Source of the DNA: an uncultured Methanobrevibacter sp.
GTDB lineage: Archaea > Methanobacteriota > Methanobacteria > Methanobacteriales > Methanobacteriaceae
Assembly (NCBI GenBank): GCA_900314605.1
Contig: OMVX01000001.1
Span: 1 to 64,000, forward strand
Length of the DNA: 64,000 nt
Reading direction: 5' to 3'
Numbering within the stretch: position 1 is the first letter of the stretch; the number at the start of each line of letters is the position of its first letter. Under the pieces are notes generated by a model that searched no databases, was not told the origin of the DNA, and saw nothing but the letters and a program-made list of their open reading frames with translations. Position numbers and translations under genes: made by a program. Below, piece by piece: positions 826 to 53,670 of the stretch.

Positions 826-1485
826 TTATTCTATTTTATCTTTTAATTTCGTAAATGTATTAATGGTTCCATTAATACTTTTTAGTACAATGTTCCATTT
901 AACAAATGATAAAACTTTTCGTGGTTTACTTTTTTCAAATAAAAATCTTGTAAATTTTAGATTACTAACTTTTAGACCATTCCAGTCATAGTATTCTCCT
1001 ACTGTTTGAATACCTTCTGTTGTATGAAATGCCATTTTATTTATACCATCATCAAACCATTTTTCAACTTCTTTTTCTAATGGAAGATCTATTTTATTTA
1101 CAACATATTTCCAAAAGATATAAGCATCACTACACGGTGCATTTTCTTCAGGTTCAAATGGTTTTAACTCCCCATTGTGGTAAAATAATTTTTCAGATTC
1201 TCCTTTAAGTCTATTTTCTTCATTTATGGGGAATGGATGACACATTATTGCATTATTAGGTCCTGAAGTACCATATCTAAAGTGTACAATAGCCTCAACT
1301 GAATATAATTCATTTACAATTTTTTCAATTTCATCCCAATCGGTTAAGCCTTTTTGCCATATGAGAAGATTTTTATTTTTATCTAGATAACTAATTCCAA
1401 CTCCATGGGGATTTTGTTTATACATAGCTTCAATATCTTCCCTTGAAATATTAGTATTTTCAGGTTTAATAACTATTACACACAT
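826..1485 (-). CDS. Class II glutamine amidotransferase-like (Ntn-hydrolase) protein
   Basis: 219 aa. The sequence begins Met-Cys-Val-Ile, placing a cysteine at position 2 where class II (GlxA/YafJ-type) amidotransferases expose their catalytic N-terminal nucleophile. Further family landmarks are HFRYGTSG (about residues 68-75), MCHPFPI (about 81-87) and a YHNGEL motif (about 102-107) equivalent to the HNG glutamine-binding loop. An AGGAG box precedes the ATG. No synthase domain is attached and no obvious partner lies beside it; the neighbours are a tRNA and purB. It may hydrolyse an amide or donate ammonia to an unknown partner. The fold assignment is likely, the substrate unknown. Confidence 0.6.
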   Translation of the reverse strand: MCVIVIKPENTNISREDIEAMYKQNPHGVGISYLDKNKNLLIWQKGLTDWDEIEKIVNELYSVEAIVHFRYGTSGPNNAIMCHPFPINEENRLKGESEKLFYHNGELKPFEPEENAPCSDAYIFWKYVVNKIDLPLEKEVEKWFDDGINKMAFHTTEGIQTVGEYYDWNGLKVSNLKFTRFLFEKSKPRKVLSFVKWNIVLKSINGTINTFTKLKDKIE

Positions 1486-13199: not shown

Positions 13200-13449
13200 T
13201 TAAACACCATAATAATATAGTCAATTATTAAATCATAATTATATAAGCTATTTTTATTAATATTCTCCAATTTTGGAAAATTAATTTATTTAATAATAAA
13301 TTTTTTATTTTTTAAAATATTTATATTATATTTTAAATTTTATCTATTAAAAAAAAGATTCTATATTTAATTTTAATTTAAAAGTTTTAGATTTTTTAAA
13401 AAAAGTAATTTTTTTATTCTTTTAAAAATTTCAGAAGTAAAATTTATTT

Positions 13450-13510
13450 TTCCTGGGATATATATGCCGGGGGCGGGATTCGAACCCGCGGCCTCACGGT
13501 ATCCCAGGAA
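13450..13510 (-). repeat. Inverted repeat linking tRNA-Met 3' trailer and intron
   Basis: TTCCTGGGATA (13450-13460) and TATCCCAGGAA (13500-13510) are perfect 11-bp inverted repeats. On the tRNA strand one arm is the trailer just after the mature 3' end and the other spans the 3' splice site of the intron. The two could pair in the precursor. Confidence 0.8.
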
Positions 13511-13574
13511 TTCAGTCAGAGCATAGCTAAAAACCCTATGAGCCGTGCGCTCTAACCAGCTGAGCCACCCCGGC
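13465..13574 (-). tRNA. Elongator tRNA-Met (anticodon CAT) with 36-nt intron
   Basis: Exons give a 74-nt cloverleaf: acceptor GCCGGGG/CCCCGGC, D arm GCTC...GAGC, anticodon stem CACGG/CCGTG, loop CTCATAA, T arm GCGGG-TTCGAAT-CCCGC, discriminator A. The 36-nt intron follows position 37, the usual archaeal site. A bulge-helix-bulge can be drawn: outer helix CACGG/CCGTG, central helix CTCA/TGGG, three-base bulges TA^G and AT^A. The sequence resembles archaeal elongator tRNA-Met rather than initiator or tRNA-Ile2. Minus-strand TATA AGTATATATATGA lies at about 13602-13614. The splicing ligase RtcB is encoded in the same window. Confidence 0.93.
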
Positions 13575-13881
13575 AATATACTATTTAGTTTTTGATTATT
13601 ATCATATATATACTTTTTCTTTTTTTCATATTTTTAAATATTTTTTTTTAATTTTTAAATTATTTTTCTCAAAATTTTATTTTTTATAATTTTAAATATT
13701 ATGTAAGCAAATATATATTTGATATTTATAAAAGTTTATAAAAAAATTATTTCATTAAAGTTTTTTGTATATTTCAAATAATAATTTTTTAAACCTTATA
13801 AATATTAAAAAAATTATAATTATATTTTTTTTTATTTATTTAAAAATCAAATTTCAAAATTAAAAGTTTTCAGTGATATTT
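13575..13881. other. Divergent promoter region of tRNA-Met and the homocysteine hydrolase gene
   Basis: 307 bp. The left end carries the tRNA TATA box (about 13602-13614, minus strand). CTTATAAATATTAAA near 13796 is a good plus-strand box A about 85 bp before the hydrolase ATG. The middle is featureless A/T. Confidence 0.5.
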
Positions 13882-30193: not shown

Positions 30194-32941
30194 ATGAATA
30201 CTAAGACAAAGAATATACTCAAATCTGTAGTAATCATTCTCATACTTTTTGCTTTTGTATTAGCATTAAGACTTCCTGCTGCTAATATTAATGGAATTCC
30301 TTCAGAATTAAAAGGAGATTATGTTGATTCCAGTGGTCTTCCTTATTTTTCTGAAATGGATTCATATTATAACTTAAGGATGACACAGGATTATTTTGAC
30401 CATGGTTACTATGGAGATGCTTTGGTTAATAATACGCAAATTGATAATCATAGATATTCTCCTTTCGGTGCTAATACTACGAATGATTTAGGTATTGCAG
30501 TGACTACTACATGGCTACATAGTTTGGCCCAATTTTTCGGTGATTTTGACATTAAAACCGTGGCATTTTGGACAGGATCTATTATAGCTTCTTTAGCTGT
30601 TATCCCCGCATATCTACTTCTAAGAAGAGTTACTAATGATTATGGAGCAATTACTGCATCTTTGCTTATTGCATTATCTCCTAACTACTTTGCTCACACA
30701 TTCCCTGGTTTTTTTGATACCGATATGTTTTATTTTATTTTTCCATTGTTTATGATTCTATTTTTCTTTGAATCTATACGATCGGATAATAAGACACATA
30801 AGATATTGTTTGCAATACTTACAATTATAACAATTCTCGGATTCTCTCAAGCGTGGGATGGTTATGTATTTTACATTGCTATGTTAGGTTTATTTGTAAT
30901 ATTCTATTTGATTATTAATTTTATTATGAGTATTAGAGATTCAACTGAACACATGTCTTTAAGCACTAGGATTAAGAAGTTTTTCACTCGATCAGACATA
31001 TTATTGATTATTGGACTTGTTGTTTTACTTGTTGTAATATTTAATATTGTTGATTCTTTCGGTATTGTTGGAATTATTGGTAATGTTTTAAGCGGTTTTG
31101 CCCTACAAGCTAAAACTACTTTATCAGGTTTCCCTAACGTATCCATATCTATTGGTGAGCTTCAAATTCCTAATTTAATTTCTGGCGGGGTCACTGGCGC
31201 TTTCTTAGCAGATTCTGGATCTGCAATAAATGGTATTGGTGGAATAACTTGTTTATTTGCTTCTTTAATAGTTCTTTACACTTTTGTAGTTAGATTATTT
31301 AAATTGCAGAAAACTAATGTTAAAACAACTTCTTCAGGGAAATTACCTAAAAGTCAAAGAGTATCTCCTGCTGAAAAGGCAGATAAAAGTCAATTTAGTT
31401 TAAACCTTAATCAAATTGAGAACTTCGGTGCTAAATCAGAACATCATCAATCTAAAAAAGATACTATATTGTACTTATCTTTATTTATAGTTTGGACCAT
31501 TTCAGCTGCTCTTGCAGTAACACAGGGTGCAAGGTTTATTACATTATTAATTTTACCATTCGGTATACTTACTGGTATTTTTGTAGGTTATGCTGCAGAT
31601 TATATTAAATATAAACGAATTTCAGATAAAAAGTTAATAGCCTTAATTGTTATTTTTGCTCTTATAGGGTCTTACCCTATTCTCAATCAAATAAATTGGA
31701 CATTAGGTATTGCTGTATTTGGAATTATTCTTATTATTGTTGCAGTCCTATACCAACTTAAAAAACCATTAGTCTATAATGATATACCATATACAAAATA
31801 TTTGGCAATATTCTGTATATTCCTAGCAATTGTTTCTCCAACAATATGTTTTGCTCAGTATACTGCTGACCATATTGGTCCAGGTACTTCTGATTATATG
31901 TGGAATTCAATGGAATGGATTAATGAAACTCAACCTAAAGATACAGTTATCGCATCATGGTGGGATTTCGGTTATTTATTTGAGATTGCTGCTGATAGAC
32001 AAACAGTCTTTGATGGAGGTATGCAAGGTATGGAAGGTAGGGCTTATTGGCTTGGTCATGCAATGACCACGAAAAACCTAGAATTATCTGCAGGTATTTT
32101 TAGAATGCTTGGTACATCTGGATATGACCCGATATATTATAAATTATGCCCTTATACAAATTCAAGCAATGGAACTACTGCAAAAATACTTGATGATATT
32201 TTACCTCAAGCTAAATCTGATGCACAATCTACATTAACTAATAAATATAAGATTCCAAGTTCAGTTGCTGCTGATGTTGTTCAACTTACTCACCCAGATA
32301 ATCCTAGACCAGTTATTTTTGTAGCAAGTTCTGATATGCTTCAAAAAGCAAGTTGGTGGACCTACTTTGGTAATTGGAAATTTGATGGTGAAGACACTGA
32401 TCCATATCAATATTATGTATCTACAAATCAAACTCAATTAAATGCTTCTGGTCAAAGTGGTGAAATTCTATTACTTCAAGATTATGGAGTTAACTTTACT
32501 GTCAATATTACCAGAGGAGCAAATAATAATACTAATGCACAAGTTGTTAGTAAATTTGCTAATAATGGTAGTACAACTATTGTGAATGGTTCAGAGTATA
32601 ATCCATTAAAAGCTGGTCATATTCTTGTTATTGAAGATGGTTATCTTATTAAAAACGAAAGTATAAAAGGTGTTAGCGACGGTAACTTTACATTATATGT
32701 AATGGGATACAATGGTACTTACAATGCTATATTGATGAGTAATGAACTTGTTGATTCAATGTTTACTCAATTGTATCTTTTAGGTGGTGTAGGTCAGGAC
32801 GTATTTACTCAGGTACATATGGATACAGGTGTATCTTTATGGAAGGTCAACTTTGAAAATACGGCAGCTGGAGGAAATCCTTCCTCTTCTACTGCTGAAG
32901 TTTCAAATTCGTCTAATAATAATACAACATCGACCTCCTAG
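30194..32941 (+). CDS. aglB: Oligosaccharyltransferase AglB (STT3 family)
   Basis: 915 aa. Transfers a lipid-linked glycan to Asn-X-Ser/Thr sites of exported proteins. The N-terminal ~560 residues are a multi-helix membrane domain (about 13 segments). Metal-binding acidic loops are EMDSYYNLR (about 58-66) and FFDTDMFYF (about 175-183). The external catalytic domain begins after the last helix with the signature WWDFGYLFEIA (near residue 590). The C-terminal part is rich in Asn/Ser/Thr, and the tail is a Ser/Asn/Thr stretch. The start is ATG 30194 behind GAGGAT; a TTG 15 bp upstream would lie before that site. A perfect hairpin terminator follows the stop. Confidence 0.95.
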   Translation: MNTKTKNILKSVVIILILFAFVLALRLPAANINGIPSELKGDYVDSSGLPYFSEMDSYYNLRMTQDYFDHGYYGDALVNNTQIDNHRYSPFGANTTNDLGIAVTTTWLHSLAQFFGDFDIKTVAFWTGSIIASLAVIPAYLLLRRVTNDYGAITASLLIALSPNYFAHTFPGFFDTDMFYFIFPLFMILFFFESIRSDNKTHKILFAILTIITILGFSQAWDGYVFYIAMLGLFVIFYLIINFIMSIRDSTEHMSLSTRIKKFFTRSDILLIIGLVVLLVVIFNIVDSFGIVGIIGNVLSGFALQAKTTLSGFPNVSISIGELQIPNLISGGVTGAFLADSGSAINGIGGITCLFASLIVLYTFVVRLFKLQKTNVKTTSSGKLPKSQRVSPAEKADKSQFSLNLNQIENFGAKSEHHQSKKDTILYLSLFIVWTISAALAVTQGARFITLLILPFGILTGIFVGYAADYIKYKRISDKKLIALIVIFALIGSYPILNQINWTLGIAVFGIILIIVAVLYQLKKPLVYNDIPYTKYLAIFCIFLAIVSPTICFAQYTADHIGPGTSDYMWNSMEWINETQPKDTVIASWWDFGYLFEIAADRQTVFDGGMQGMEGRAYWLGHAMTTKNLELSAGIFRMLGTSGYDPIYYKLCPYTNSSNGTTAKILDDILPQAKSDAQSTLTNKYKIPSSVAADVVQLTHPDNPRPVIFVASSDMLQKASWWTYFGNWKFDGEDTDPYQYYVSTNQTQLNASGQSGEILLLQDYGVNFTVNITRGANNNTNAQVVSKFANNGSTTIVNGSEYNPLKAGHILVIEDGYLIKNESIKGVSDGNFTLYVMGYNGTYNAILMSNELVDSMFTQLYLLGGVGQDVFTQVHMDTGVSLWKVNFENTAAGGNPSSSTAEVSNSSNNNTTSTS

Positions 32942-33256
32942 CATTATAAGTTAAGATTTTTATCTTAACTTATTTTTTTTATTTTAATTTACTATTTTTT
33001 TTATAATTTTTATTTTAAAATTCAATAAATTATTACTTAATCAATTTTTAAATTTTAGAATTTTCCCTTTTTTTTATTTATTAATATTTAGATATTTTTT
33101 CTATTTGCTTTAATTTTTTTAAGGAATTATTAGTTTTAAAATTTAATTTTAATCTTAAGTTTTATATATTTTAAAATAAGAAATAATTATTATATTATTT
33201 TTATATGTTTTTTAAAAAATTATTTAATTTTTAATTATCATTTATTTGGTGTATTT
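32942..33256. other. Spacer between aglB and the DRG GTPase gene
   Basis: 315 bp. The first 40 bp hold the aglB terminator. The remainder is A/T-rich with a possible box A (TTTTATATATTTTAAAA) near 33163-33177 for the GTPase gene. Nothing else was seen. Confidence 0.45.
32947..32980 (+). terminator. Hairpin plus T-run terminator after aglB
   Basis: TAAGTTAAGAT, loop TTTT, ATCTTAACTTA: a perfect 11-bp stem starting six bases after the aglB stop, followed by eight T residues. It looks like a bacterial intrinsic terminator; archaeal polymerases terminate mainly on the T-run itself. Confidence 0.8.
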
Positions 33257-36559: not shown

Positions 36560-36904
36560 ATGAGTGAACTTGATGAAATTCGTCGTAAAAAAATGGAGGA
36601 ATTGCAAAAACAACAAGAACTTGCTAACCAACAAATGCAACAGCAAGTGGATCAGCAAGCTCAACAAGAACAATTTGATGCACAGCTTAATCAAGCTGTA
36701 AAACAAATTATGACTCCAGAAGCTCGAAGCAGATTAACCAATCTTAAATTGACTAGACCTGAATTAGTCAAACAAATTGAAATTCAATTAATTCAATCTG
36801 CTCAAGCTGGTAGTTTAAAAGGAAAAGTAACTGATGACCAACTTAAAGTTTTATTATCACAATTAGCTGGTCAAAAAAGAGATATCCGTATTACCAGGAA
36901 ATAG
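36560..36904 (+). CDS. PDCD5-family DNA-binding protein
   Basis: 114 aa, an archaeal orthologue of eukaryotic PDCD5/TFAR19. An N-terminal Gln-rich helix (KMEELQKQQELANQQMQQQ) precedes a compact helical core with IMTPEARSRLTNLKLTRPELVKQIEIQLIQ and GSLKGKVTDDQLKVLLSQLAG, ending in basic KRDIRITRK. It is conserved beside S19e in many archaea. The precise cellular role is unsettled; nucleic-acid and chaperonin/prefoldin links are reported for the family. The start is ATG 36560 after GGAGAT; an upstream TTG at 36554 would add two residues within the spacer. Confidence 0.92.
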   Translation: MSELDEIRRKKMEELQKQQELANQQMQQQVDQQAQQEQFDAQLNQAVKQIMTPEARSRLTNLKLTRPELVKQIEIQLIQSAQAGSLKGKVTDDQLKVLLSQLAGQKRDIRITRK

Positions 36905-53283: not shown

Positions 53284-53436
53284 TTGCATGGACACTAATA
53301 GTTTAATTAGTAATGCTAGAGTATTGGGTTTGGTATTACAAAGAATTGTAAAACAAATAATATGTAGGATTATACTCTAACAATAGATAGTACTGAGAAA
53401 AGCAATACTAAAAAAACCATTAGTATTACCATGCAA
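53284..53436. repeat. 153-bp nested imperfect hairpin
   Basis: Five nested helices fit in order: TTGCATGG (53284) with CCATGCAA (53429); CTAATAGTTT (53295) with AAACCATTAG (53414), one mismatch that becomes G-U in minus-strand RNA; TAGTAATGCT (53308) with AGCAATACTA (53401), one mismatch; TAGAGTAT (53317) with ATACTCTA (53372); TTACAA-AGAA-TTGTAA (53336-53351). About 40 paired positions in total. It may encode a structured RNA or be a decayed inverted-repeat element. It overlaps the end of the small minus-strand gene. Confidence 0.75.
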
Positions 53437-53531
53437 GATTGAATATTTATATTTTTATCAATTATTACATCATAGATTGATGTTTTTTTTCGTAAATCTG
53501 TATTTACATTTGTATTTTTATATTTAAACAT
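53370..53531 (-). CDS. Small tail-anchored membrane protein (53 aa), hypothetical
   Basis: 53 residues: a polar, basic first half (MFKYKNTNVNTDLRKKTSIYD) and one C-terminal membrane helix (CMVILMVFLVLLFSVLSIV) ending in Arg-Val. The ATG at 53531 is preceded by GTGATTAAA, the standard ribosome site of this genome, which is the main support. A TATA-like TATATTTTTATAAAAAA lies about 90 bp upstream on the minus strand. It is divergent from archease. The 3' half is part of the nested hairpin at 53284-53436, so its codons may be accidental. I recognise no family. Confidence 0.45.
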   Translation of the reverse strand: MFKYKNTNVNTDLRKKTSIYDVIIDKNINIQSCMVILMVFLVLLFSVLSIVRV

Positions 53532-53670
53532 TTTAATCACTCACTACCATTACTGTGTTTAGGAGCATATTTAAAGAAAATGCGAGAGAGCATATGAAAA
53601 CTAATATTTTTTATAAAAATATAAAAATTCTTTTAGCTTAAATTAAGTATTATTTCAATTCAGTGTTATT

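Follow-up and report, generated by a model that had tools for sequence, protein, structure and literature searches.

A small gene beside cdc6 in Methanobacteriaceae whose conserved mRNA structure may alternate between two folds

Small-protein mRNAs with competing folds

In the hok mRNA of the hok/sok type I system, the folded full-length transcript excludes both the ribosome and the antisense RNA, and it refolds after cleavage at the 3' end (PMC4147584, in which work on the end-pairing and metastable structure of this mRNA is also cited). The aapA toxin mRNAs of Helicobacter pylori form short metastable hairpins, one of them in the ORF, which have been proposed to act during transcription (PMC6733600). 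The archaeal locus described here would share with hok an mRNA for a small membrane protein with a refolding logic (PMC4147584), and with aapA the metastable hairpins that precede the final fold of a small-protein mRNA (PMC6733600). However, hok is bacterial, its silent fold covers the translation start and an antisense RNA exists (PMC4147584), whereas the present element is archaeal, folds within the second half of an ORF and the 3' UTR, is kept at one fixed locus, is not known to have an antisense RNA and has no sequence relation to hok. The aapA hairpins sequester the Shine-Dalgarno sequence (PMC6733600), which is touched by neither of the two helices considered below, P5 and P1. As far as the analogy goes, the archaeal element resembles the hok and AapA mRNAs in logic and is unrelated to them. 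It is not classed with them because their hairpins cover the translation start and the archaeal one is a fixed single-copy locus.

In riboswitches and attenuators, mutually exclusive local and long-range helices share one strand, mostly in a 5' UTR, and control the downstream gene. The present element likewise has a local and a long-range helix that compete for a common strand, but this strand is coding, the third strand is in the 3' UTR, the next downstream gene is on the opposite strand, and the element is not known to bind a ligand. To our knowledge, which includes the open papers, few cis-acting mRNA structures have been described in archaea, and we know of none kept throughout an archaeal family in which coding sequence and 3' UTR are the competing partners.

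A small gene between archease and cdc6

The window, that is, the whole stretch of 64,000 nucleotides from an uncultured Methanobrevibacter sp. to which coordinates refer unless a relative is named, contains on its minus strand an ORF of 53 amino acids plus stop codon at 53370–53531 (MFKYKNTNVNTDLRKKTSIYDVIIDKNINIQSCMVILMVFLVLLFSVLSIVRV), with a profile match of E 9.5e-27 at 53373–53531. It is absent from the list of ORFs in the window because this list has a limit of 60 amino acids. The hairpin of the original prediction, at 53284–53436, is not an intergenic element: the membrane-helix-coding half of this ORF makes up its 5' arm, and the 3' UTR of the same gene makes up the other.

The protein has a basic N-terminal half with the sequence DLRKK and a single C-terminal hydrophobic helix from QSCMV onward. 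Translation of the matched places gives a short minus-strand ORF in nearly all related loci. The proteins of the relatives are mostly 53–73 amino acids long, have DLRKK and QSCMV in common, and end with a hydrophobic stretch followed by a short tail; by eye, all 15 of 15 aligned sequences are 53–66 amino acids long with one C-terminal hydrophobic stretch. Judging from this C-terminal stretch alone, the product is probably a tail-anchored membrane protein. The frame is open in relatives and the protein is conserved across species, which marks the ORF as a conserved protein-coding gene, and in the N-terminal half, outside the hairpin, substitutions favour third codon positions (0.28 per codon, versus 0.15 and 0.12). 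Neither Pfam nor NCBIfam gives a credible match to the protein, and no description of the gene or its RNA was found in the open literature. An identity as Doppel was rejected, the match (E 0.058) being far below the Doppel cut-off.

Downstream of the small gene, cdc6 is encoded convergently on the opposite strand, and the archease gene lies upstream in a divergent orientation. Both neighbours are so placed in 84 of 98 Methanobacteriales loci and one of the two in another 13, some of the retrieved stretches being so short, or so close to the end of a contig, that the two genes cannot both be seen; the single locus with neither neighbour (L111) is a doubtful relative. The carriers that have names are Methanobrevibacter and its relatives. 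At E ≤ 0.01 the profile matches 104 of the 139 genomes of the family and 108 of the 152 genomes of the phylum, counts which include a few weak matches in larger frames that are probably due to chance. Within the order, a second family contributes four genomes that match the profile with E from 6e-6 to 4e-4, all at the same locus. By sequence comparison, about 100 methane-producing archaea carry the small gene at this position.

There are some loci in which the gene is altered or missing. The ORF of L012 has no intact start. In L106 (674–760, relative G040), a stop codon interrupts the ORF, and P1 contains a C·A mismatch by eye; this is likely to be a decaying copy. The complete genomes of genus g3 give no profile match to the small gene. 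In L143, a locus of this genus, cdc6 and archease are nearly adjacent, and in L144, also of this genus, they are separated by an ORF other than the small gene (914–1114, minus strand), which is hydrophobic at its C-terminal end.

The region upstream of the ORF (53532–53604, minus strand) contains three elements of putative function: the Shine-Dalgarno-like GTGAGTGATT immediately before the ATG, the A/T-rich, TATA-like TTTAAATA about 40 nt upstream, and a conserved block, TTTTCATATGCTCTCT, which is kept in relatives and is common to the small ORF and the divergent archease gene. The Shine-Dalgarno-like motif is found in 85 of 90 loci and the TATA-like box in 83 of 90. At 53571–53604 (minus strand), a block TTTTCATATGCTCTCTC is followed by an A/T-rich TATA-like stretch and is kept in many relatives (TTTTCAAATGCTCTCT); it is perhaps a regulator site common to the two divergent genes, archease and the small ORF. 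A scan for sigma-70 promoters and terminators, which does not apply to archaea, found nothing.

Pairing of coding sequence with the 3' UTR

The five nested helices predicted at 53284–53436 were all recovered at their positions. In minus-strand letters they are TTGCATGG/CCATGCAA, ACTAATGGTTT/AAACTATTAGT, TAGTATTGCT/AGCATTACTA, TAGAGTAT/ATACTCTA and TTACAA-TTCT-TTGTAA, and all arms described below are on the minus strand. The 153 nt fold with −44.4 kcal/mol (z −8.6) as the minus strand and with −36.9 kcal/mol (z −4.8) as the plus strand; on either strand, 0 of 200 dinucleotide shuffles were as stable, in agreement with the prediction that the nesting exceeds chance. When stability is corrected for G+C by regression, the minus-strand hairpin ranks first, and the plus-strand hairpin 18th, among 3,196 folds of 153-nt tiles that cover the window on both strands. 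Folds at 13361–13593, 32841–32993 and 36561–36873 of the window are likewise unusually stable for their G+C, and the first of these overlaps a minus-strand tRNA, the match of which spans 110 bases (13465–13574), suggesting an intron. Rfam gives nothing in the window at the gathering score except two tRNAs, and in six relatives only a plant microRNA at E 0.35.

P1 is formed by the codons SCMVxL and the 3' UTR. In its lower part, TTGCATGG (53429–53436), which is nearly invariant and lies in codons S-C-M-V, pairs with CCATGCAA (53284–53291) in the 3' UTR, for which a compensatory pair is found in L105 (TTGTATGG/CCATACAA). In its upper part, ACTAATGGTTT (53414–53424), in the codons after SCMV, pairs with AAACTATTAGT (53294–53304), also in the 3' UTR, and both arms covary. 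Further examples of P1 arm pairs are TTGCATGGTAACGC/GCGTTATCTTGCAA in L028 and TTGCATGGTAATATTTGCAGT/ACTGCAAATAAACCATGCAA in L074. The P1 duplex has a z below −2 against shuffled 3' UTR in 87 of 90 loci, and pairing of a locus's own arms amounts to 24.6, versus 19.4 with arms from other species. When the upper part is anchored, own arms give 11.8 and permuted arms 6.06 ± 0.40, with 0 of 2000 permutations as high. Free placement of arms in a 200-nt A/T-rich UTR gives own-versus-foreign medians of 0.42–0.50 for upper P1, P2 and P3 and is uninformative for these helices, a problem that anchoring fixed for P1. By eye on alignment A2, P1 consists of 11 pairs, a one-base bulge and 4–5 pairs; the alignments were made with MAFFT, and upper P1 contains small indels. 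An archaeal intron of the bulge-helix-bulge type was considered and rejected, P1 lacking the pair of 3-nt bulges set four base pairs apart.

The strand on which P1 acts can be read from its mismatches. P1 contains 115 G·U cells versus 4 A·C cells, all mismatches being scored alike and the cells not being independent. Since an A·C as read on the coding strand corresponds to a G·U on its complement, this bias indicates an RNA of the minus strand of the window, at which a single mismatch in the original prediction had already hinted. It also bears on readings at the DNA level, such as a cruciform or a protein-binding palindrome next to cdc6, linked for example to replication, or a decayed mobile element. 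The conserved position beside cdc6 speaks for such a feature, but it is largely refuted by substitutions that go to G·U and not to A·C, and the arm spacing is variable, the arms are constrained at the codon level and there is one copy, so that we regard this reading as scarcely credible. In particular, a palindrome of a replication origin is rejected, the strands behaving unlike each other in the same 115 and 4 cells, and a MITE with inverted repeats is rejected by the absence of dispersed copies, there being one full copy in the source genome and one per relative at the same locus. Of the three interpretations offered originally, that of a structured RNA on the minus strand is supported by the covariation at one syntenic site that had been proposed as its check. 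Those of a decayed mobile element (one copy per genome) and of an origin-associated cruciform (G·U mismatches on one strand only, constrained codon choice in the arm) are not supported, and the coding half and the competing fold had been missed.

P2 brings the end of the ORF to the 3' UTR. In the window, where it was located by local alignment, its 5' arm, TAGAGTAT (53372–53379), takes in the last codons plus the stop codon's first base, and its 3' arm, ATACTCTA (53317–53324), lies just 3' of a conserved loop. In relatives, P2 is GCAGC/GCTGC or GCAGC/GTTGC; 90.8% of cells pair, and double changes occur in 3 of 5 pairs. The loop motif, ACCAAACCC (53326–53334), lies unpaired with the stop codon on one side and the 3' arm of P2 on the other, is present in most loci of the family, and is the most conserved part of the 3' UTR, nearly invariant. 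Other elements are more restricted. A third helix between TAGTATTGCT (53401–53410) and AGCATTACTA (53308–53317), which belongs to the long-range state, is seen in the window's own genus only, and conservation of the apical hairpin TTACAA-TTCT-TTGTAA in the 3' UTR (53336–53351) was not seen outside the genus. P3, which surrounds the stop codon, is lineage-bound, with 62.6% of its cells paired. In the largest genus (g5 loci, for example L043), an inverted repeat P4, CATTAGA/TCTAATG, closely flanks the P1 3' arm; 85.6% of its cells pair, and it would be a competitor of P1. No claim is made for P4 as an RNA element, as it has no strand bias (14 versus 18 cells). In L028 and L029, the left copy of P4 is found upstream of ACCAAACCC as AATTAGATTAA and still matches the right copy.

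For the structure P1+P2+P3+P4 on A2, 86.4% of cells are paired, versus 27–41% when it is slid, and there are 71 double-change cells versus 22.3 ± 4.4 in shuffles that keep relatedness. With a covariance model built on A2, the element is detected in 93 of the phylum's 152 genomes, in each of them essentially a single time and at this locus; the small number of additional matches are either close to threshold or on short contigs. Searching related genomes likewise places the sequence at one place per genome. By these comparisons, the RNA structure is conserved in most Methanobacteriaceae, and a conserved RNA structure acting in cis and overlapping the ORF is almost certain. In family f3, which from its gene order is probably Methanothermobacter-like, neither P1 nor P5 is detected, though the protein is kept, and in L026 and L100 both helices are weak or lost and the protein persists. 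Because the protein persists without P1 in these cases, the RNA fold is not essential to the gene.

A second fold and its possible role

The second fold was first seen in the RNAalifold consensus of A2, in which lower P1 is accompanied by a coding-internal hairpin that replaces upper P1. In this hairpin, P5, the 5' arm GTAATACTAA (53420–53429), which overlaps P1, pairs with TTAGTATTGC (53402–53411), inside the ORF about seven codons further on. On alignment A3, which consists of 77 distinct coding stretches, 95.9% of cells pair, compared with 65.7% and 57.3% when P5 is slid by three columns so that the codon phase is kept. Double changes occur in 6 of 7 pairs, in 45 cells versus 6.3 ± 7.2 in shuffles that keep relatedness. 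As a further control, the same peptides were recoded with synonymous codons weighted by use in neighbouring genes of the window: in the median over 90 loci, the P5 region is more stable than 99.5% of the recodings and the P1 duplex more stable than 100% of them. Protein sequence therefore explains neither P1 nor P5. Comparison among relatives accordingly establishes the ORF, both helices, their covariation, the constraint on codons and the strand.

P5 and upper P1 are mutually exclusive because they use the same bases, and the 3' strands of both track changes in the common 5' strand. Three strands that co-evolve in this way are, at the level of sequence, the signature of an RNA switch, and a genuine two-state switch is probable, with considerable room for doubt. 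In the window, the long-range fold has −59.5 kcal/mol and the P5-enforced fold, in which lower P1 is retained, −51.1 kcal/mol. The long-range fold is therefore better by 8.4 kcal/mol, and P5 may be transient or may not matter at equilibrium. This fold is also the minimum-energy fold in the representative species examined, as would suit a static element that protects the mRNA or marks its end opposite cdc6, with P5 a by-product of the shared strand and codon bias. The 3' UTR reaching to the convergent end of cdc6 in compact genomes and the second inverted repeat, P4, beside the P1 3' arm in the largest genus would also fit. However, P5 is independently backed by covariation and by synonymous recoding and is needless for a static end hairpin, and a terminator needs no reach of about 65 nt into the coding sequence. 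We consider a static element doubtful, and yet the most serious of the competing explanations.

Our preferred reading, to which we give slightly more than an even chance, is that of a cis-acting bistable mRNA that governs the translation or the lifetime of a small membrane protein. The element would be the 3' half of the mRNA for the small, probably tail-anchored protein, with two exclusive conserved folds. P5 would make up the local fold, the beginning of the membrane-helix codons (GTAATAC or GTAATGC) pairing with codons about seven residues downstream. In the long-range fold, the same codons would pair with the 3' UTR as upper P1, and P2 would pair the codons near the stop beside the ACCAAACCC loop. 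The bottom of P1 (TTGCATGG/CCATGCAA) could remain paired in both. P5 would presumably form first, during transcription or behind a ribosome, and once a full 3' UTR is available and no ribosome occupies the coding region, strand exchange would lead to the long-range fold, which every passing ribosome would reset. The likely outcome in cis would be a limit on the frequency of translation or on mRNA lifetime, and hence on the amount of membrane protein. P1, P2 and P5 start about 32 codons after the start and leave the start codon and the Shine-Dalgarno site uncovered, which makes the route to translational control less plain and counts against the model.

Whether the RNA acts on its own gene or elsewhere bears on this model; in our estimate, an effect in cis on translation or stability, as opposed to an RNA that acts in trans, falls a little short of an even chance. 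In a trans-acting version, the 3' half would be a regulatory RNA processed from the mRNA or started inside it, with ACCAAACCC as the seed and the gene as the carrier. Among the unpaired stretches of the 3' UTR, ACCAAACCC is the most conserved, and it is free of protein constraint; the structure is compact and ends at the P1 3' arm. On the other hand, codons within the structure are still under protein constraint, the protein is more widespread than the RNA fold, and no clear set of complementary targets emerges, GGGTTTGGT (the complement of ACCAAACCC) having 8 sites in the genome (5 forward, 3 reverse) versus 3 for the reversed control. Such an RNA seems improbable. In the bistable mRNA, a protein, an RNA or a ligand would bias the switch by acting at the ACCAAACCC loop. 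Somewhat less improbable than the trans-acting RNA, and still unlikely, is an extended version of the model in which a ligand or protein is sensed by the loop together with P2, and the exchange of P5 and P1 in the membrane-helix codons is the output. If this were true, the element would represent an archaeal class of regulatory RNA with coding sequence as one of three competing strands.

A small hydrophobic protein with a single helix, mutually exclusive local and long-range folds and a 3' end that pairs with the body of the mRNA also recall type I toxin mRNAs such as hok and AapA, in which case the protein would be toxic and the folds would silence the mRNA until it is processed. Toxin genes are usually patchy in distribution, whereas throughout the family this gene has one copy at a fixed locus, and its folds leave the translation start and the Shine-Dalgarno site uncovered; by analogy with these systems, a toxin-like mRNA is very unlikely.

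The finding brings to light a small protein, old and hitherto unlisted, that is encoded next to archease. The locus was missed twice, for opposite reasons: it is too short for gene finders and too coding for RNA finders. If the bistable mRNA is confirmed, it would provide a testable system in abundant methanogens of the gut and rumen, in which the tail of an mRNA controls a small membrane protein.
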